Below are positions 11,208-31,580 of a DNA stretch of 35,728 nucleotides, piece by piece. Source of the DNA: Candidatus Parcubacteria bacterium (GTDB taxonomy: Bacteria > Patescibacteriota > Saccharimonadia > UBA4664 > JAHWKN01); the NCBI GenBank assembly GCA_019347875.1, contig JAHWKN010000007.1, positions 1 to 35,728 of the forward strand, read 5' to 3'. Within the stretch, counting starts at the first letter, position 1. The number at the start of each line of letters is the position of its first letter. The notes beneath the pieces are model-generated. The model worked only from the letters and a program-made list of their open reading frames with translations, had not been told where the DNA came from and searched no databases. The translations under genes were made by a program, and so were the position numbers.

Positions 11208-11228
11208 TGCTTGCCATACAAACGCTAA

Positions 11229-11260
11229 TCTCTAAACCCTAACCCCTAACTTTCTAAAAC
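11229..11260. repeat. Short heptanucleotide repeat (CCCTAAM type)
   Basis: Heptamers in phase: ACCCTAA, CCCCTAA, CTTTCTA, between the UDG start and the pnp end. The remaining bases of the 139-bp gap show no gene. Confidence 0.5.
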
Positions 11261-13558: not shown

Positions 13559-13621
13559 TTTAACATTTAACACCTGACAACTGGGTTTGGTTGTCAAATG
13601 TCAAAGGTCAATCGTCAAGGG
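13559..13621. repeat. Heptanucleotide repeat between rpsO and pnp
   Basis: Nine heptamers in continuous phase, from TTTAACA, TTTAACA, CCTGACA through TCAAATG, TCAAAGG, TCAATCG to TCAAGGG, ending at the rpsO stop codon. On the minus strand the unit reads TTGACNN four times, which is close to a -35 hexamer. Confidence 0.75.
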
Positions 13622-15560: not shown

Positions 15561-16229
15561 ATGAAACTGATCCAACAGCTAATAGAGTTTGTCGCGCCGC
15601 TGGAGTGTCTTGGCTGCGGACGGGAGGGCGGGCTGGTTTGCCGCGCCTGTTTGCCGGGCATCATTATCACCAAACGCCCGACCTGCTACCGCTGCAACCG
15701 CCTGAGCCCGGGCGGCCGCACCTGCCTCAGCTGCCGGCCCTCGACCAAGCTGTCCGGCGTGACGGTGGCGTCGCATTACGAAGGCGCGGTGAAGGCGCTG
15801 ATCGGGGCGCTCAAGTACCAGCGGGCTGCGTCTGCCGCCGGCCTGGCGGCCGCTTTGATAACCCCTTTGCTGAAAGACCTGGCTATCGATGTGGTCACCA
15901 GCACCCCGGCTTCGGCCGGCCGCTACCGTCAGCGCGGGTACAACCAGGCCCAGCTGGTGGCTAAAGCGGTGGCGAAGTCGCTTAATCTACCTTATGCCGA
16001 CCTATTGATCCGTACCGGCAATGCTCACCAGGTCGGCACTAGCCGCCAACAGCGCCTCAAGCAGGTGCAGGGGGCGTTTGAGCCGCGCCGCCCGTACCTA
16101 ATTCAAGACACCCGCATTCTGTTGGTAGACGACGTCGTCACTACCGGTGCCACCATGGCCGAATGCGCCAAGGCGCTCAAGGGTGCCGGCGCCAAACATG
16201 TTTGGGGCACGGCCATCGCCAAGCATTAA
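15561..16229 (+). CDS. comF: ComF family phosphoribosyltransferase-like protein
   Basis: 222 aa. ComF proteins are needed for DNA uptake in naturally competent bacteria, where ComFC acts on the single-stranded DNA in the cytoplasm. Two zinc-ribbon pairs are seen: Cys16, 19, 27, 30 and Cys42, 45, 55, 58. The phosphoribosyltransferase domain follows with STPASAGRYRQRGYNQAQLVAKAVA and the PRPP-loop ILLVDDVVTTGATMAECAKAL. No ComFA or other competence gene is nearby. A TATACC lies 19 bp upstream and no Shine-Dalgarno is visible. An overlapping frame starting at 15524 is a shadow. Confidence 0.93.
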   Translation: MKLIQQLIEFVAPLECLGCGREGGLVCRACLPGIIITKRPTCYRCNRLSPGGRTCLSCRPSTKLSGVTVASHYEGAVKALIGALKYQRAASAAGLAAALITPLLKDLAIDVVTSTPASAGRYRQRGYNQAQLVAKAVAKSLNLPYADLLIRTGNAHQVGTSRQQRLKQVQGAFEPRRPYLIQDTRILLVDDVVTTGATMAECAKALKGAGAKHVWGTAIAKH

Positions 16230-16232
16230 AAC

Positions 16233-16280
16233 GAGTAACGAGGAGTGAGTAGTCAGTAGTGAGGAGAGAGCAGGCGGCAG
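16233..16280. repeat. Heptanucleotide repeat after comF
   Basis: Heptamers in phase GAGTAAC, GAGGAGT, GAGTAGT, CAGTAGT, GAGGAGA, GAGCAGG. The same units recur in 16466-16500, 29367-29478 and inside valS and tsaD. The rest of the 154-bp comF-tRNA gap holds a -10-like TATGGTAAT near 16306. Confidence 0.7.
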
Positions 16281-16465: not shown

Positions 16466-16500
16466 ATGTAGTCAGTAGACAGTAGTGAGTAGTCAGGGGA
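16466..16500. repeat. Heptanucleotide repeat between tRNA-Arg and tRNA-Ser
   Basis: Heptamers in phase GTAGTCA, GTAGACA, GTAGTGA, GTAGTCA, GGGGAAA. Confidence 0.7.
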
Positions 16501-24670: not shown

Positions 24671-27313
24671 TTAAGCTTGCTCGATGACCCTAATCTGCTC
24701 ATCCAGTTTCGCCAAGACCCCCCTGGCTTGCTCCAGCCGGTCTTTGGTGTCGGCAATCACCGCTTTGGGTGCTGATTTCACGAAAGACCGGTTAGACAGC
24801 TGGTTGTCCAGCTTGGCCAGATACTCACGCTGACTGGCGCGCTTGGCTTGTAAGCTTCCTAAATAGGCCTTAACGGTGGCGGCGTCAATATCCAGCCAGG
24901 CCTCGTCCTGCCGGCTTCCGAGCGCCAGTCCCCTCCCCTGCTCCACCCGCTTAATCTCCCCTGTTCCTGCCAGCCGCTTGATCAAAGCGGCGTTCTGCTC
25001 GATCAGGCTCGATTGTTTGTATAACAGTACGGGCTGGCTTAGCTTTAAATCGGCCTTTAGCCCCCGTATCTGGTTGATGATCTCTTGTAGCTTTTCGAAC
25101 TGGTGGTACTCCCGGGCAAAACGGTGCTGCGTGTTCGGCCAGTGTTCGGTTATCAGGTTGGTCTGCTGCCAAGGGATGTTTTGCCAGATCGTCTCGGTTA
25201 CAAAAGGGGCGAAAGGGTGGGTCAGTTTCAGAATGGTCTCGAGCGCGTAAACCAGTACCGGCAGGTTAAGATCGGACTTTGAGGCCTCGAGGTACCAGTC
25301 GGCAAAGTCGTTCCAAAGCAGTGAGTAGGCGGCCTGACCGGCGTCGCTGAAGCGGTAGCTGTCGAGGTCTTTGGTGATGCTTGCATTTGCTTGTGAAAGC
25401 TTATGCAATAACCATTTGTCGGGGAGGGAAAGGGTAGCGGGGAGTGGGGAGTGAGGAGTGAGCTTTTCGGGGTTGGCTTCTGTCTCCTCGCTACTCGCTA
25501 CCGCCCCCAGCACAAACCGGGCAACGTTCCACAGCTTATTACAGAAGTTACGGTAGCCCTCGACCTTTTTTTCGCCCAGGGCGCCGTCGTTACCCGGTGT
25601 GATGCCGATGACGAGCGCCAGCCGCAGGGCGTCGGTGCCGTACTTGGCGGTAAAGTCGAGAGGGTTGATGACGTTGCCTTTTGATTTGCTCATTTTCTGA
25701 CCATGCGCGTCGTTGACCATACCGTGCAGATAAACGTTTTTAAACGGCACCTCGCCGGTGCGGTAAAGTCCGAGCATAACCATGCGGGTGACCCAGAGGA
25801 ACAAAATATCGCGGCCGGTTTCCATGACCGAGGTCGGGTAGAAGCGGTCGAAGTCGCCGGTGGCCATGAGGGTGGCAAACGGCCATTGGCTGGAGGAAAA
25901 CCAGGTGTCGAAGATGTCGGTTTCGGGTTCGTAGTTGCCCTGGCCGTAGTAAGCCTGGGCCTCGGTCTCATCGGCCGTGATCAGGTAGGGGAGTTTGCCG
26001 TCGTCGCCGGAGGCGTTGTAGTAAACTGGGATGCGCATGCCCCACCAGTCCTGGCGGCTGATGTTCCAGTCACGCAGGTTCTCGAGCCAGTTAACGTAGA
26101 CCTTCTCGAAGCGTTTGGGGATGATCTTGATGTCGCCGTTTTTAACCGCCGCGATGGCCGGCGCAACCAACGGCCGAACCTTTAGCCACCACTGTTCGGT
26201 TACCAACGGCTCGATAGCCGTCCCGCAGCGGTCGTGGACGGCCACGGCGTGTTTGTAGTTCATGTCGATGTGGTCGATTAAGCCGCGCTCCTCCAGGTCG
26301 CGTGATACCTGCGCGCGCGCTTCGTCTACCGGCATGCCGGCGTACTTGCCGCACAGGGCGGTTAAGCGGCCATCGGTGCCGATGGCCGCTTTGACCTCCA
26401 GATTATGCCGCAGCCCTATCTCCCAGTCGTTCGGGTCGTGGGCCGGCGTTACCTTGACGACGCCGGTACCGAAGGCTGGATTAACGTGGGTATCGGCAAT
26501 GACCTTAAGCGAGAACTTTCCAAGCAGTCCGTCGGCCTCGATTTCCTTGCCGACGTACTTTCGGTAGCGCTCATCTTGAGGATGGACCGCGATGGCGGTG
26601 TCGGCGAACTTGGTCTCGGGGCGGACGGTGGCCAGCACGAACGGCCCGTACTTGATGTAGTACAGCGGGTCGATCTGCTCGCGGTGCTTAATCTCGATGT
26701 CGGCAAAGCCGGAGCGGCAGCGCGGGCACCAGTTAACGATGCGGTTGCCGCGGTAGATCAAGCCGTCGTCGTGCAGCCGTTTAAACGTTTCGTAGACGAT
26801 GGCGATGATGTCGGGGTCGAGCGTGAACTTCATCCGGCTCCAGTCGCAGCTAAAGCCCAGGCTGCGCAGCTGGTTCTCCATGTTGACCCTGTTCTTTTGG
26901 GTGAAGGCCATGACGTCGGCATAAAAGCGCTCACGGCCCAGGTCGAACCGGCTTTTGCCCTCTTTCTCCAGTAATCTCTCATAAACTACCTGCGTCTCGA
27001 TACCGGCGTGGTCGGCGCCGGGCAGCCATAGGGTGGGCTGGCCCAGCATGCGGTGGTAACGGATTAAGATATCCTCCACCGTGTACATGGCGTGGCCGGT
27101 GTGCAGGTCGCCGTTAGCGTTGGGCGGCGGCATGATGATGCAAAAGGGGGACTCGGGACTCGTAGGTCGTATGTCGGGTTTGGCCGCCTTATCCGATCTA
27201 CGATCTGCGATCCCCGAACCCCGGTCTGCCGGCTTAAAGGCCCCGGACTCTTCCCACATGCGGTAGATGTCGGCTTCATACTTGGCCGGTTCGTAGGCTT
27301 TATCCATTTCCAT
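24671..27313 (-). CDS. valS: Valyl-tRNA synthetase with two repeat-derived insertions
   Basis: 880 aa. Charges tRNA-Val and edits mis-charged threonine. The class I motifs are PPPNANGDLHTGH (HxGH at 71-74) and GQKMSKSKGN (about 541). The editing domain (FGTGVVKVTPAHDPNDWEIG), DWNISRQDWWGMRIPVYY and the C-terminal coiled-coil arm are present. Two stretches are foreign in look: residues about 30-55, right before the HxGH block, and about 604-627. Both are encoded by 7-bp phased repeats (27147-27234 and 25433-25502) and would be surface loops. TAAAAT (27321-27326), in the TGCTAAAAT context, lies 7 nt before ATG 27313, so the mRNA is probably leaderless. Confidence 0.97.
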   Translation of the reverse strand: MEMDKAYEPAKYEADIYRMWEESGAFKPADRGSGIADRRSDKAAKPDIRPTSPESPFCIIMPPPNANGDLHTGHAMYTVEDILIRYHRMLGQPTLWLPGADHAGIETQVVYERLLEKEGKSRFDLGRERFYADVMAFTQKNRVNMENQLRSLGFSCDWSRMKFTLDPDIIAIVYETFKRLHDDGLIYRGNRIVNWCPRCRSGFADIEIKHREQIDPLYYIKYGPFVLATVRPETKFADTAIAVHPQDERYRKYVGKEIEADGLLGKFSLKVIADTHVNPAFGTGVVKVTPAHDPNDWEIGLRHNLEVKAAIGTDGRLTALCGKYAGMPVDEARAQVSRDLEERGLIDHIDMNYKHAVAVHDRCGTAIEPLVTEQWWLKVRPLVAPAIAAVKNGDIKIIPKRFEKVYVNWLENLRDWNISRQDWWGMRIPVYYNASGDDGKLPYLITADETEAQAYYGQGNYEPETDIFDTWFSSSQWPFATLMATGDFDRFYPTSVMETGRDILFLWVTRMVMLGLYRTGEVPFKNVYLHGMVNDAHGQKMSKSKGNVINPLDFTAKYGTDALRLALVIGITPGNDGALGEKKVEGYRNFCNKLWNVARFVLGAVASSEETEANPEKLTPHSPLPATLSLPDKWLLHKLSQANASITKDLDSYRFSDAGQAAYSLLWNDFADWYLEASKSDLNLPVLVYALETILKLTHPFAPFVTETIWQNIPWQQTNLITEHWPNTQHRFAREYHQFEKLQEIINQIRGLKADLKLSQPVLLYKQSSLIEQNAALIKRLAGTGEIKRVEQGRGLALGSRQDEAWLDIDAATVKAYLGSLQAKRASQREYLAKLDNQLSNRSFVKSAPKAVIADTKDRLEQARGVLAKLDEQIRVIEQA
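25433..25502. repeat. Heptanucleotide repeats inside valS (C-terminal third)
   Basis: Units such as GGGGAGT, GGGGAGT, GAGGAGT, GAGCTTT, then oppositely oriented CTCCTCG, CTACTCG, CTACCGC. They keep the valS frame open and encode a Ser/Pro/Glu/Thr-rich loop (about residues 604-627). Confidence 0.7.
27147..27234. repeat. Heptanucleotide repeats inside valS (N-terminus)
   Basis: GGGACTC, GGGACTC, GTAGGTC, GTATGTC on one side, and CGATCTA, CGATCTG, CGATCCC, CGAACCC, CGGTCTG in the opposite sense on the other. They are related to 120-161 and encode an Arg/Ser/Asp/Pro-rich insert at residues about 30-55. Confidence 0.75.
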
Positions 27314-28215: not shown

Positions 28216-29352
28216 CTACATCGCTAACGAAGAGTCGGCAACGAGCTTCGCCGGGTCGATTTGCTGGTCGGCTTTGGCGTAATGGTGACCCAGCGCCGCC
28301 ACCATAGCAGCATTGTCCGTGCAGAGGTAGGGAGGCGGGATGAGGACCGGGACCGGAACACGCCGCCGCAGCTCTTGGCGCAGGGCTTGGTTGGCCGCCA
28401 CTCCGCCGGCCAGCACAATTTGTTTTGGCTGGTGCGCTTCACATGCAACTTCCAAGCGGTCTACCAACGTGTCGACCACCGTTTTCTGGAAACTGGCGGC
28501 CAGGTCGTTTCTTTGCTGTTCGGTCAGCTTGTGGTGCAGCTCCCAGGACGGAGCGGTGTGGTCGAGGCCGGCCAGCTCCTGCACCTGGCGCAAGACAGCG
28601 GTTTTCAGGCCGCTGAAGCTGTAATCTAAACTATGCTTGCCAAGTTTAGCCTTAGGAAAGCTAAAAGCTTGCTCGTTACCCTTAAGCGCCGCTTTGGCGA
28701 TGGCCGGCCCGCCGGGGAAACCCAGTCCGAGCAGTTTGGCGATCTTGTCGAACGCCTCGCCGGCGGCGTCATCGCGGGTTTGGCCCAGTACCGTGTAGTC
28801 CAGGTGGCCGCGGAACAGCGCAATCTGAGAGTGTCCTCCGGATACGATCAGCGCCAGGAGGGGGAAGCGGGGAGAGGAGAGAGGAGAGGGTAGAGAGGAG
28901 GGAGCTGCGTCATGCAAGAAGGCCGCGTAAACGTGGGCTTCGACGTGGTTGATGGCATAGAGGGGCTTGTTTTTAGTATAGGACAGAGTGCGAGCGGTGA
29001 GTGTGCCGATTAGCAGTGAGCCGTGCAGCCCGGGACCGGCGGTGACGGCGATGCCGTCGACTAGCCCCCAGTAGTCAGGAGTGGGTAGTGAGGAGCGAGT
29101 CTTGGAAGCAATCTGGCTCACTCCACCCTCCTCACTACTAACTACTTGAGAAAAAGCCTCTGTCAAGGCTTTTTCGACCACAGGCAGCATCACTTCGATG
29201 TGGCTGCGAGCCGCCACCTCCGGTACGACGCCGCCGTAGGCCGCATGCAGGTCGATTTGTGAGGCTACCACATTACTTAGCAGAGTCGCACCGTCCTTGA
29301 CGACGGCAGCGGCCGTTTCGTCGCAGCTGGTTTCGATACCCAGGATGTTCAT
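28216..29352 (-). CDS. tsaD: tRNA threonylcarbamoyladenosine biosynthesis protein TsaD, with two repeat-derived insertions
   Basis: 378 aa. Completes t6A37 modification of ANN-decoding tRNAs together with TsaB, TsaE and TsaC. Motifs: ILGIETSCDETAAAVV at the N-terminus, metal-binding NHVEAHVYAAF, VSGGHSQIALF, and the late IVLAGGVAANQALRQEL. The chain has extra Ser/Pro/Glu-rich loops at residues about 67-94 and 149-165, both encoded by 7-bp phased repeats. The start is ATG 29352, since TATACT (29359-29364) is exactly 6 nt upstream and the family begins here. An 85-residue in-frame extension upstream simply reads through tandem repeats. It is divergent from the femAB-like gene. Confidence 0.95.
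   Translation of the reverse strand: MNILGIETSCDETAAAVVKDGATLLSNVVASQIDLHAAYGGVVPEVAARSHIEVMLPVVEKALTEAFSQVVSSEEGGVSQIASKTRSSLPTPDYWGLVDGIAVTAGPGLHGSLLIGTLTARTLSYTKNKPLYAINHVEAHVYAAFLHDAAPSSLPSPLSSPRFPLLALIVSGGHSQIALFRGHLDYTVLGQTRDDAAGEAFDKIAKLLGLGFPGGPAIAKAALKGNEQAFSFPKAKLGKHSLDYSFSGLKTAVLRQVQELAGLDHTAPSWELHHKLTEQQRNDLAASFQKTVVDTLVDRLEVACEAHQPKQIVLAGGVAANQALRQELRRRVPVPVLIPPPYLCTDNAAMVAALGHHYAKADQQIDPAKLVADSSLAM
28858..28905. repeat. Heptanucleotide repeats inside tsaD (second insertion)
   Basis: Units GGGGAGA, GGAGAGA, GGAGAGG, GTAGAGA, GGAGGGA on the plus strand. They encode a Ser/Pro/Leu-rich loop (SSLPSPLSSPRFP) between the NHVEAHVYAAF and VSGGHSQI motifs. Confidence 0.7.
29069..29150. 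repeat. Inverted pair of heptanucleotide repeats inside tsaD (first insertion)
   Basis: AGTAGTC, AGGAGTG, GGTAGTG, AGGAGCG on the left and CTCCACC, CTCCTCA, CTACTAA, CTACTTG on the right. The two arms are partly complementary, so the segment could fold as a hairpin in DNA or mRNA. Confidence 0.7.
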
Positions 29353-29366
29353 GCGGTTAGTATACA

Positions 29367-29478
29367 GGAGTGAGGAGTGAGGAGTGAGGAGTGAGGAGTG
29401 AGGAGTGAGGAGTGAGGAGTGAGGAGTGAGGAGTGGGTAGTGAGGAGTGGGTAGTGGGGAGTGGGTAGTTGGGAGCGG
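29367..29478. repeat. Sixteen-copy heptanucleotide tandem repeat in the tsaD-femAB intergenic region
   Basis: GGAGTGA nine times in a row from 29367, then seven variants (GGAGTGG, GTAGTGA, GGAGTGG, GTAGTGG, GGAGTGG, GTAGTTG, GGAGCGG) with no loss of 7-bp phase. It lies between the divergent leaderless promoters of tsaD (29359-29364) and the femAB-like gene (29526-29531). Confidence 0.95.
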
Positions 29479-29525
29479 GCAAGTAGCCAAGGGCGCGTTT
29501 CTGGCTTCTGACTGCGCCGTGCTGC

Positions 29526-29531
29526 TACAAT
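29526..29531 (+). promoter_or_regulatory. Leaderless -10 of the femAB-like operon
   Basis: TACAAT in the context TGCTACAAT, 7 nt before ATG 29539. It faces the tsaD -10 across the 16-copy repeat. Confidence 0.65.
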
Positions 29532-29538
29532 GTTGCCA

Positions 29539-30522
29539 ATGGTTACGATTCATCAGGGCGTTCCGGACCGGGATTGGGATGAGCGGTTGGTCCGGCTGGG
29601 CGGACATTTTTTACAAAGCCGCCCGTGGGCGCAGTTCCAGGCGGCGCTGGGCCGCAACGTGCTGTCAGCGCGTAACGCGTCCTGGGCCTGGGGGGCTGCC
29701 GAACGGCAGGGGAGAGGGGTCAACTACCTTTATGCCCCTTACGGCCCTTGTGCGGACGCTGACGGGCTGACAGCGGCACTTGAGAGCTTGGCCGCGGCCG
29801 GGCGCGGGCATGGTGCCGATTTTGTGCGCTTTGAGCCCCAGACATCCCAAGCGGCCGCCTCGTCAATCGCCGCTACGCTGGAGAAACTCGCTGCCAAGCC
29901 GTTTGCCGAGGTCAACCCCTCGCACACCTGGGTTCTCGACCTGGCGCCCGATGAGGCCGTTTTAAGATCGGGACTGTCGTCCGGCAACCGCAACATCATC
30001 AACAAAGCCGAGCGCGCCGGCATAAGCTGCCGAGAGGCTAACGCCGACGGCGTTGAACCTTTTCTGGCCATGCTGCACGACACCTACACTCGCGCGGGGA
30101 TTAAGGCTTACGACGACGATTACTACCGCACTATGCTGCAGGTGCTGCATCCGGCGGGGGCCGCCCGGCTGGTTTACGCGTATTATCAGGGGAAACCGGT
30201 GGCCGGAGTGATCGTGTACGACTGGAACGGCCGGCGGCACTACGCCCATGCGGCGGCCGACCAGGCCGTCAACCGTCAGATTAACGCTGCACGCATGCTG
30301 GTGTGGTTTCTGATAATGGGCGCCAAGCGCGCCGGCTTAACGGCGTTTGATTTCTGGGGGGTGGCGCCTGATGACGACCCCAAACACCCTTGGCACGGCC
30401 TGAGCAAGTTTAAAAAATCGTTTGGCGGCAATGGAGTCCAGTACGCGGGCACCTGGGATCTCCCCCTAAAACCCGCCAAGTATCAGGTTTACCGGCTGGC
30501 TAAGAAAGTGCTGCCGCTGTGA
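29539..30522 (+). CDS. FemAB-family peptidoglycan-bridge aminoacyltransferase (first of two)
   Basis: 327 aa. Fem-type enzymes move amino acids from aminoacyl-tRNA onto the peptidoglycan stem to build the cross-bridge. Two GNAT-like halves are seen; signatures include FLQSRPWAQFQAALG, LRSGLSSGNRNIINKAERAGI, LHDTYTRAGIKAYDDDYYRTML, YYQGKPVAGVIVYDWNGRRHYAHAAAD and AFDFWGVAPDDDPKHPWHGLSKFKKSFGG. It would act at the inner membrane face. ATG 29539 is preferred over ATG 29530, because 29530 lies inside the -10 TACAAT. It overlaps the next gene by 4 nt (GTGA), so the two are coupled. Confidence 0.93.
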   Translation: MVTIHQGVPDRDWDERLVRLGGHFLQSRPWAQFQAALGRNVLSARNASWAWGAAERQGRGVNYLYAPYGPCADADGLTAALESLAAAGRGHGADFVRFEPQTSQAAASSIAATLEKLAAKPFAEVNPSHTWVLDLAPDEAVLRSGLSSGNRNIINKAERAGISCREANADGVEPFLAMLHDTYTRAGIKAYDDDYYRTMLQVLHPAGAARLVYAYYQGKPVAGVIVYDWNGRRHYAHAAADQAVNRQINAARMLVWFLIMGAKRAGLTAFDFWGVAPDDDPKHPWHGLSKFKKSFGGNGVQYAGTWDLPLKPAKYQVYRLAKKVLPL

Positions 30523-31580
30523 TTCGCGTGGCTACCTCGGACGAACTGGAGCGTTGGGACGAACTGGTGGCGGGCAATCCTGACGGCGGTAACGTGCTGC
30601 AGTGCCGGGCGTTCGGGGAGGTCAAGTCGCGCCACGGCTGGGAGGCCCGCTATCTTATCGGTCAAAAGTCAGACGTTAAAAGTCAAAAGTCCGGTCTGGC
30701 GATGCTGGCGCTGGTCCGCGCTGTCGCCGGGTTCGGCGAGCTTTGGTATGTTCCCAAAGGGCCCGGGGTGAGTGGCGTTAAGCAGCTGTCTGAACTAGTT
30801 AAGGACCTTAAGCAATATGCCGCCAAAGCTTTTCTAATAAAAGTTGAGCCCGAGCTGCTTAAAAAATCTAAAGACCAGGTCTTGGAGGAGACGGGGCTGG
30901 TGAAGGCGCCGCGTGATTTACAGCTAAACGCCGCTACGGTGCTGCTTGATTTGCGGCCGTCAGAAGATGAGATTATGGCTGCCTTTAAGCAAAAAACCCG
31001 CTATAACATCCGGCTGGCGGAGCGTAAGGGGGTGAGGGTTGAGCCGGCGGAGCTGACTTCGCGTAACATCGATTTGATGTACGGGATGATGCGCGAGACT
31101 TACCGGCGGGCAGGAGTATACACCCGGCCGAAAGCCTACTTTAGCGACTTTTGGCGGCTGCATACTGAATCTGGGCGCGGACAGCTGTTTTTTGCCGCCC
31201 ACGAGGGGCAGGTACTGGCCGCCGCGTTTGTGACTTACTTGGGCCAAAAAGCGCTGTATAAAGACGGCGCTTCCAGGCGCGAGCACAGCGGCTGGCAGGC
31301 GCCGTACCTGCTGCAATGGGAGATTATGCGCTGGCTCAAAGGCCAGGGGGTAGGGGAGTACGATCTGCACGGCACGCCGCCGGCCGACAGATTGGAAGAC
31401 AAGACCCATCCACTGCAAAGCCTGGCCCAGTTTAAAACCGGCTTTAACCCCCGGATCACCGAGTTTATCGGAACGTATGATCTGCCGGTTGATGAAGCCA
31501 GGTATCGCGCCTGGAACCGTTTTGGTGAGCGCGCCGTGACGGCTTACAATTTCCGTTTGCGCAAGCGTCTGTTTTACTAA
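30519..31580 (+). CDS. FemAB-family peptidoglycan-bridge aminoacyltransferase (second), with repeat-derived insertion
   Basis: 353 aa. Same fold and family as the preceding gene: LQCRAFGEVKSRHGWEA, IMAAFKQKTRYNIRLAERKGVRVE, MYGMMRETYRRAGVYTRPKAYFSDFW, AAHEGQVLAAAFVTYLGQKALYKDGAS and YDLHGTPPADRLEDKTHPLQSLAQFKTGF. Starts at GTG 30519, overlapping the first gene's stop. Two enzymes in a row suggest a bridge of two or more residues. Residues about 47-59 (QKSDVKSQKSG) are encoded by five heptamers (30661-30695), between two beta strands of the fold. Confidence 0.92.
   Translation: MIRVATSDELERWDELVAGNPDGGNVLQCRAFGEVKSRHGWEARYLIGQKSDVKSQKSGLAMLALVRAVAGFGELWYVPKGPGVSGVKQLSELVKDLKQYAAKAFLIKVEPELLKKSKDQVLEETGLVKAPRDLQLNAATVLLDLRPSEDEIMAAFKQKTRYNIRLAERKGVRVEPAELTSRNIDLMYGMMRETYRRAGVYTRPKAYFSDFWRLHTESGRGQLFFAAHEGQVLAAAFVTYLGQKALYKDGASRREHSGWQAPYLLQWEIMRWLKGQGVGEYDLHGTPPADRLEDKTHPLQSLAQFKTGFNPRITEFIGTYDLPVDEARYRAWNRFGERAVTAYNFRLRKRLFY
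30661..30695. repeat. Heptanucleotide repeats inside the second femAB gene
   Basis: Exactly five units: GTCAAAA, GTCAGAC, GTTAAAA, GTCAAAA, GTCCGGT. They encode the short Lys/Ser-rich loop QKSDVKSQKSG. Confidence 0.8.

Follow-up and report, generated by a model that had tools for sequence, protein, structure and literature searches.

The DNA considered here (the window) is a stretch of 35,728 nucleotides, positions 1 to 35,728 of contig JAHWKN010000007.1 in assembly GCA_019347875.1 of a Candidatus Parcubacteria bacterium of GTDB class Saccharimonadia, and it carries a gene for valyl-tRNA synthetase (ValS) whose coding sequence contains palindromes built of seven-base repeats (heptads). The genome comprises 788,579 bases and is 84.8% complete. 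Among the matches listed, this ValS is the sole strong full-length one in its own genome, the two others listed having 25 and 37% identity, and it contains the HTGH and KMSKS motifs. The features with which we are mainly concerned are as follows.

24671–27313, minus strand: valS, encoding valyl-tRNA synthetase of 880 aa (translation; NCBIfam TIGR00422, 839.7 bits against a cut-off of 612.1).
27147–27222, no strand assigned: two-armed heptad palindrome of 76 bp, codons 31–56 of valS (folds; lag-7 tract at 27194–27223; similarity to the V1 hairpin of 16S rRNA).
27167–27226, minus strand: net insert, codons 30–49, about 20 residues (alignment with relatives; predicted local distance difference test score, pLDDT, below 50 at residues 31–53).

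The left arm of the palindrome (27147–27178, plus strand) reads GGGGACTC GGGACTC GTAGGTC GTATGTC GGG, and the right arm (27193–27222, plus strand), CCGATCTACGATCTGCGATCCCCGAACCCC, lies in the opposite orientation. We define a lag-7 tract as one in which 17 of 21 bases are identical to the base seven further on; in this first insert the right arm alone qualifies, and Tandem Repeats Finder (TRF) gives 2.1 copies for the left arm. On the plus strand the two arms form one hairpin at 27147–27222 inside an 88-nt fold of −49.8 kcal/mol (z −5.3, equalled by none of 200 shuffles), and the mRNA strand folds with −36 kcal/mol (z −2.7, equalled by 2 of 200). An earlier note on this DNA, made from the sequence alone, had reported that ValS carries, immediately ahead of its HxGH motif (27147–27234), an insert encoded by repeats, with two halves in opposite orientation that could form a hairpin; the sequence is as it described, and the plus-strand fold bears out the pairing.

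Alignment with relatives delimits the inserted residues. We used 35 rows of relatives (two genomes are entered twice), of which 34 cover the region; the closest belong to the same order, and the set of relative loci may omit records very near the window. Columns 31–40 and 43–47 hold no residue in any of the 34, columns 30, 41–42 and 48–49 hold one to four residues placed by a few relatives' rows, and residues 50–55 align with an ordinary variable loop, the nearest relative having AFKPAGDSNKEPF at the site of AFKPADRGSGIADRRSDKAAKPDIRPTSPESPF. The segment from F26 to P62 is longest in this ValS, at 35 residues (193 ValS genes: median 15, next longest 31, range 13–35). Because the relatives' columns are empty and this segment is the longest, we place a net insert of about 20 residues at positions 30–49; the earlier suggestion that residues of about 30–55 lack a counterpart stands for 30–49 and fails for 50–55. 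In an AlphaFold model built on a 23-row alignment the mean pLDDT is 88, and the only segments below 50 are residues 31–53 and 608–621, both of them heptad inserts; on this model, which the same note had proposed as a check, the first insert is predicted to be a disordered extra loop. The length preceding the HxGH motif does vary in ValS generally, over the range just given, as might be expected if this were an old, ordinary functional loop. Such an origin is extremely improbable, given the columns that are empty throughout the relatives and the heptads that are still recognisable; a heptad-free version of the same residues was sought among these relatives, none closer than the same order, and was not found, and at the level of the order we reject the idea of an old loop.

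We consider it probable instead that the valS insert is a heptanucleotide-repeat module, recently copied in frame into a loop that tolerates changes in length. A BLAST search of the insert against its own genome (E up to 10) gives nine other places, only one of which spans both arms. That place lies in the 16S rRNA gene, where it forms the V1 hairpin (contig C16, 10712–10767; 70% over 67 query positions, E 4.4e-4); the identity of the gene is confirmed by an Rfam small-subunit (SSU) rRNA match, and the hairpin too folds strongly (z −5.2). The 16S V1 stem (L163 1480–1575, on C16 of this genome, G000) owes its length to a heptad hairpin closed by a GAAA loop. V1 stem length varies among relatives also (by a looser motif, with 16 of 17 loci read), and by eye the V1 stems of L179 and L183 (genomes G041 and G011, of another family in the same class) seem to be made in part of TTAGATT- or TAGAAAT-like heptads. 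Stems lengthened in this way could disturb V1-based typing of Saccharibacteria.

Six further matches are one-armed and lie near contig ends (C4, C19, C22, C29, C38 and C39), within sequence related to that of an element at the start of the window:

10–312, no strand assigned: 303-bp element with perfect 18-bp and 17-bp inverted repeats at its ends, containing a one-armed heptad tract at 120–161.

Recurrence of its sequence is probably the cause of the assembly breaks at these contig ends. With 120–161 the valS insert shares 87% identity across 31 nt (within-genome E 1.3e-4), so that the likeness of its heptamers to those at 120–161, which the earlier note had taken for an intergenic repeat, is upheld, but the repeat is one arm within the 303-bp element and not a free intergenic one. 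Similarly, of the proposal that a noncoding repeat has become protein sequence, the repeat-derived nature of the residues is supported and the noncoding source is not: elsewhere both arms are matched in the 16S gene only, and the direction of copying is unreadable from one genome. The observation itself is confirmed, and its interpretation is partly supported. Absent from the earlier account are the second ValS insert, an insert in TsaD and the heptad tracts of other Patescibacteria, all described below.

A heptad tract inside an inverted-repeat element that recurs near contig ends is what would be seen if a transposase moved a palindromic element of the repetitive extragenic palindrome (REP) or miniature inverted-repeat transposable element (MITE) kind, with heptads as the hairpin arm, in the manner of the Rickettsia palindromic elements; a palindromic repeat in the ValS gene of the relative G004 (see below) likewise has one further near-identical place in its genome. 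Against this, the valS insert is by eye without the terminal repeats of the 303-bp element and shows only its own palindrome, and there is no Y1_Tnp (PF01797) match in the 84.8% of the genome that is represented, other transposase families not having been searched. We regard transposition of this kind as quite unlikely, and movement by a REP transposase as unsupported. Y1_Tnp is similarly without a match in G151 and G147, and G066, G108 and G107 have one or two.

The step of seven bases is conspicuous both in the window and beyond it. There are eight lag-7 tracts in the window (in seven arrays, as two tracts form one array), compared with a mean of 0.01 and a maximum of one in 200 first-order resamplings, and among lags of 4–30 only 7 and its multiples 14, 21 and 28 yield tracts. 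Across 187,705 bases of the same genome there are 13 tracts at lag 7 (the eight in the window included) and four at lag 14, and none at lags 5, 8, 10, 11, 13, 16 and 17; no lag-7 tract is found in 452,216 bases sampled from ten relatives.

Heptad tracts recur in the ValS genes of other bacteria. We collected 197 loci (80 on contigs of named genomes and 117 others, that of the window included), leaving 194 once three with identical centres were dropped. Within the phylum, ValS is matched at an E value of 1e-100 or better in 123 of 162 genomes. Ninety of these entered the set, 60 by fetching their sequences and the rest as 30 loci, 27 of which are new to the set; the remaining 33 comprise the 31 weakest matches, mostly partial, and two partial matches in mid-list, G195 and G032. 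The 194 genes contain 20 lag-7 tracts, in 15 genes, compared with a mean of 0.3 and a maximum of two in 50 codon shuffles, and at other lags the counts are 0 to 1 (4, 5, 10, 11, 13, 17, 19 and 20), 12 (lag 14) and 5 (lag 16). About six ValS loops take all 20 tracts: in P0001 positions these lie at approximately 31–41 (this genome only), 223–226 (two tracts), 377–382 (two), 433–451 (six), 600–630 (eight) and 683 (one). Among the 258 residues that the tracts encode, 98 are in columns occupied by fewer than 25% of the sequences, where the background is 2.3% of all residues. One tract gene comes from an Anaerolineae record (L041), and the rest outside our genome are Patescibacteria by record title or come from genomes of the window's phylum. 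The heptamers mostly differ between genomes, and include CAGCAGT, ATTTCAG, AATTACG, GGAGTGA, AAATCTC, AAATTCG and others. We note also that in L064 (coding sequence, CDS, about 1105–1200) a heptad tract is closely followed in the same loop by a separate CCCCCTTGATAAAGGGGG hairpin, and that octamer arrays of the ACACAAAA kind are present in L046 (CDS 1119–1168 and 1335–1431) and L029 (CDS 2398–2454), which are Falkowbacteria and Kuenenbacteria records.

Two of these genes carry twin arrays. In the ValS gene of L249 the same 31 bases, AAGAGCTCGGAGCTCGCAGCTCGGGGTTCGG, are present at two loops, positions 602 and 683; the exact 23-base core occurs at those two places only in that genome and in none of 11 other genomes searched, and both arms are present at one site and one arm at the other, paralleling the relationship of the valS insert to 120–161 in our genome. 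In L282, (AAATTCG)4 is found both at position 377 and at position 605, and within that genome an exact run of three copies, a 21-mer, is confined to those two places. Because independent expansion would hardly choose the same heptamer twice in one gene, these arrays have apparently been copied, and locally. The twin arrays bear directly on the alternative that there is local de novo expansion only, in which slippage amplifies a chance heptamer in each loop and nothing is transferred from one place to another. Slippage does produce tandem heptads, and the heptamers are for the most part unlike between genomes, but simple slippage does not yield inverted arms, and both the twin arrays of L249 and L282 and the two-armed sequence common to valS and 16S need copying; we judge expansion by itself unlikely.

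The window contains several further heptad features, including a second palindrome in valS and one in the nearby tsaD gene.

25431–25501, minus strand: second heptad palindrome in valS, in loop E, residues about 604–628 (TRF; columns 608–616 and 623–624 sparse; pLDDT below 50 at 608–621).
28216–29352, minus strand: tsaD, encoding 378 aa (NCBIfam TIGR03723, 380.4 bits against 296.1).
29070–29154, minus strand: heptad palindrome in tsaD, residues about 67–94 (relatives' alignments broken there).
28856–28904, minus strand: one-armed (GAGAGGA)n tract in tsaD, residues about 150–166 (TRF and lag-7; the segment is no longer than in some relatives).
29366–29479, no strand assigned: 14-copy (AGGAGTG) array directly upstream of tsaD (TRF).
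30661–30691, plus strand: (GTCAAAA)n tract in a FemAB-family gene (30519–31580, by Pfam; TRF score 41, under the lag-7 threshold).
16241–16270, no strand assigned: intergenic heptad tract between the open reading frame (ORF) 15561–16229 and tRNA-Arg (weak matches, E 0.04 and 0.27; tRNA search).
16468–16496, no strand assigned: heptad tract between tRNA-Arg and tRNA-Ser (TRF, lag-7 count, tRNA search).
13591–13619, no strand assigned: heptad tract (TGTCAAA) outside large ORFs (TRF, lag-7 count).
11220–11250, no strand assigned: heptad tract (AAACCCT) outside large ORFs (TRF, lag-7 count).

The second ValS insert folds with −45.7 kcal/mol (z −5.95) on the plus strand and −23.2 (z −3.4) on the mRNA strand. 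In G004 (L094, CDS about 1745–1810) loop E is filled by a different palindromic repeat, which encodes SGHPELDSGSIPDRVRNDN, a peptide that resembles a widespread repeat, and has one further place in the G004 genome with one mismatch; loop E therefore admits more than one kind of palindrome. The TsaD alignments are interrupted at residues 64–67 and 94–98, flanking the palindrome, in 18 of 20 relatives, and in a multiple alignment that took in 14 of the 20 (a start-motif filter left out six) the palindrome's residues face a gap in 13. The two that align through unbroken are G016 and G038, with the site in G016 filled by some 17 unrelated residues (L134). The fold of the tsaD hairpin (z −1.2 and −1.7) and that of the spacer at 16241 (z −1.0) are not significant. 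The longest tsaD ORF (463 aa, 28216–29607) crosses the 14-copy array and would give TsaD an extra, spurious peptide of repeats, and the true start is probably at 29352; the array had no match in 72,556 plasmid records, for which a low-complexity filter may be the cause. Among other loci, a prepilin peptidase gene (L127) also has a heptad palindrome or tract, and the spacer L296, read by eye as groES-groEL, has a heptad hairpin (z −4.1). A heptad-like stretch in MutM (L304) has a weak BLAST match (E 0.27) and no lag-7 tract, and is not counted as an insert.

Since both ValS inserts pair, and a hairpin is present in the putative groES-groEL spacer, it could be argued that selection acts on the hairpin as nucleic acid (for translation pausing or mRNA stability, for example) with the peptide as a by-product. 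We think this very unlikely, as pairing in ValS is much weaker on the mRNA strand, with 14 G.T pairs against two A.C pairs on the plus strand over both inserts, as if it were being lost. The strand bias is a mere hint, because there is none of the kind in tsaD (two against three), the L296 spacer (one against two) or 16S (one against four).

If the insert is a copied module, as we favor, an arm of about 30 nt (three to five heptamers) would be copied between places, probably by template switching or nascent-strand slippage in replication or repair, and fold-back copying could generate the second, inverted arm. Most insertions would be lost, the survivors being those that are in frame, free of stops, and situated in exposed loops, spacers or length-tolerant rRNA stems, and the peptide itself may be a tolerated disordered loop without a catalytic job. 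We suggest more tentatively, and with rather less confidence than for valS itself, that across the Patescibacteria heptad modules could generally and repeatedly give rise to new protein loops, each genome having its own, partly shared set of heptamers, with local copying, sometimes twice per gene, in a seven-base step, and with survivors gathering at a small number of shared permissive loops in essential enzymes and in rRNA stems.

Several observations weigh against the copied-module interpretation of the valS insert. Copying itself was not observed here, and with relatives no nearer than the same order the empty site of a sister strain is unseen. The low pLDDT of the inserts arises partly from other alignment rows that do not cover their columns; the similarity to 16S is modest, with low complexity in both arms; and the tsaD palindrome has a fold of −35.7 kcal/mol with a z of only −1.2, equalled by 20 of 200 shuffles. 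Seven is favored and not exclusive, because lags 6 and 18 give four and six tracts in 170,135 bases of our genome, compared with 12 for lag 7, and because octamer tracts occur, five lag-8 tracts coming from 3 of the 194 ValS genes, two of which hold true octamer arrays. Some heptamers are common to different genomes: AAATCTC is present in both L260 and L261, which belong to different families, and the AAATTCG 21-mer of L282 has a single place in each of two of the 11 other genomes searched, G158 and G196. Finally, arrays whose exact core is limited to one gene argue against free movement throughout the genome.

Small-genome bacteria are usually thought to purge repeats of this sort, and in the ValS genes the conversion of repeats into protein is a natural experiment performed several times over. 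The sites converge across lineages and most of the sequences do not, so that the tolerated place is separable from the sequence inserted there, and the twin arrays within single genes open the copying mechanism to testing; site convergence and twin arrays are the parts that specialists may find most noteworthy.

A search of the open-licence PubMed Central (PMC) literature returned nothing on heptad repeats in Patescibacteria proteins among the top-ranked matches, and our comparisons with other systems draw on excerpts of the papers cited. Rickettsia palindromic elements (RPE) are present in frame in conserved proteins, and also in tmRNA and RNase P (M1) RNA (Delihas review, PMC2229807). The heptad inserts resemble them as tolerated palindromic repeats lying in frame in conserved protein genes (here ValS and TsaD) and in a stable RNA gene (here the 16S V1 region), but RPE measure 105–146 bp, share a family consensus and have terminal repeats of 12 bp, whereas here there are heptad arms of about 30 nt that are mostly genome-specific, and a palindrome of 76 bp in valS (PMC2229807). 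As to MITEs, the 303-bp element has terminal inverted repeats, and the valS insert appears by eye to have only its own palindrome. The short tandemly repeated repetitive (STRR) sequences of cyanobacteria are usually 7-bp repeats and form hairpins (PMC2670836); tandem 7-bp units, hairpins (significant here in both valS inserts, 16S V1 and L296) and a location in spacers are shared features, and the differences are that the units here are also within essential protein genes and in Patescibacteria, the host being a Saccharibacterium (PMC2670836). In the P6b stem of the Nostoc trnL intron degenerate heptads similarly pair arm to arm, and through them a tolerant RNA stem varies in length, as 16S V1 does here, although that is an intron of a tRNA gene, and rRNA and protein genes are involved here (PMC3488679). 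TAACTGA arrays are present in Beggiatoaceae, cyanobacteria and Bacteroidetes (PMC4679880), and like our heptads are patchy across phyla without an evident mechanism of transfer; those of Beggiatoaceae are of one fixed heptamer, nearly all direct repeats, and mostly just upstream of start codons, unlike the repeats described here (PMC4679880). The valS case works like an RPE and looks like an STRR, and we assign it to neither: its unit and sequences depart from the RPE unit and consensus, and its comparison with STRR covers unit length, hairpins and location. The seven-base step itself is common to these Patescibacteria, the cyanobacteria and the Beggiatoaceae.

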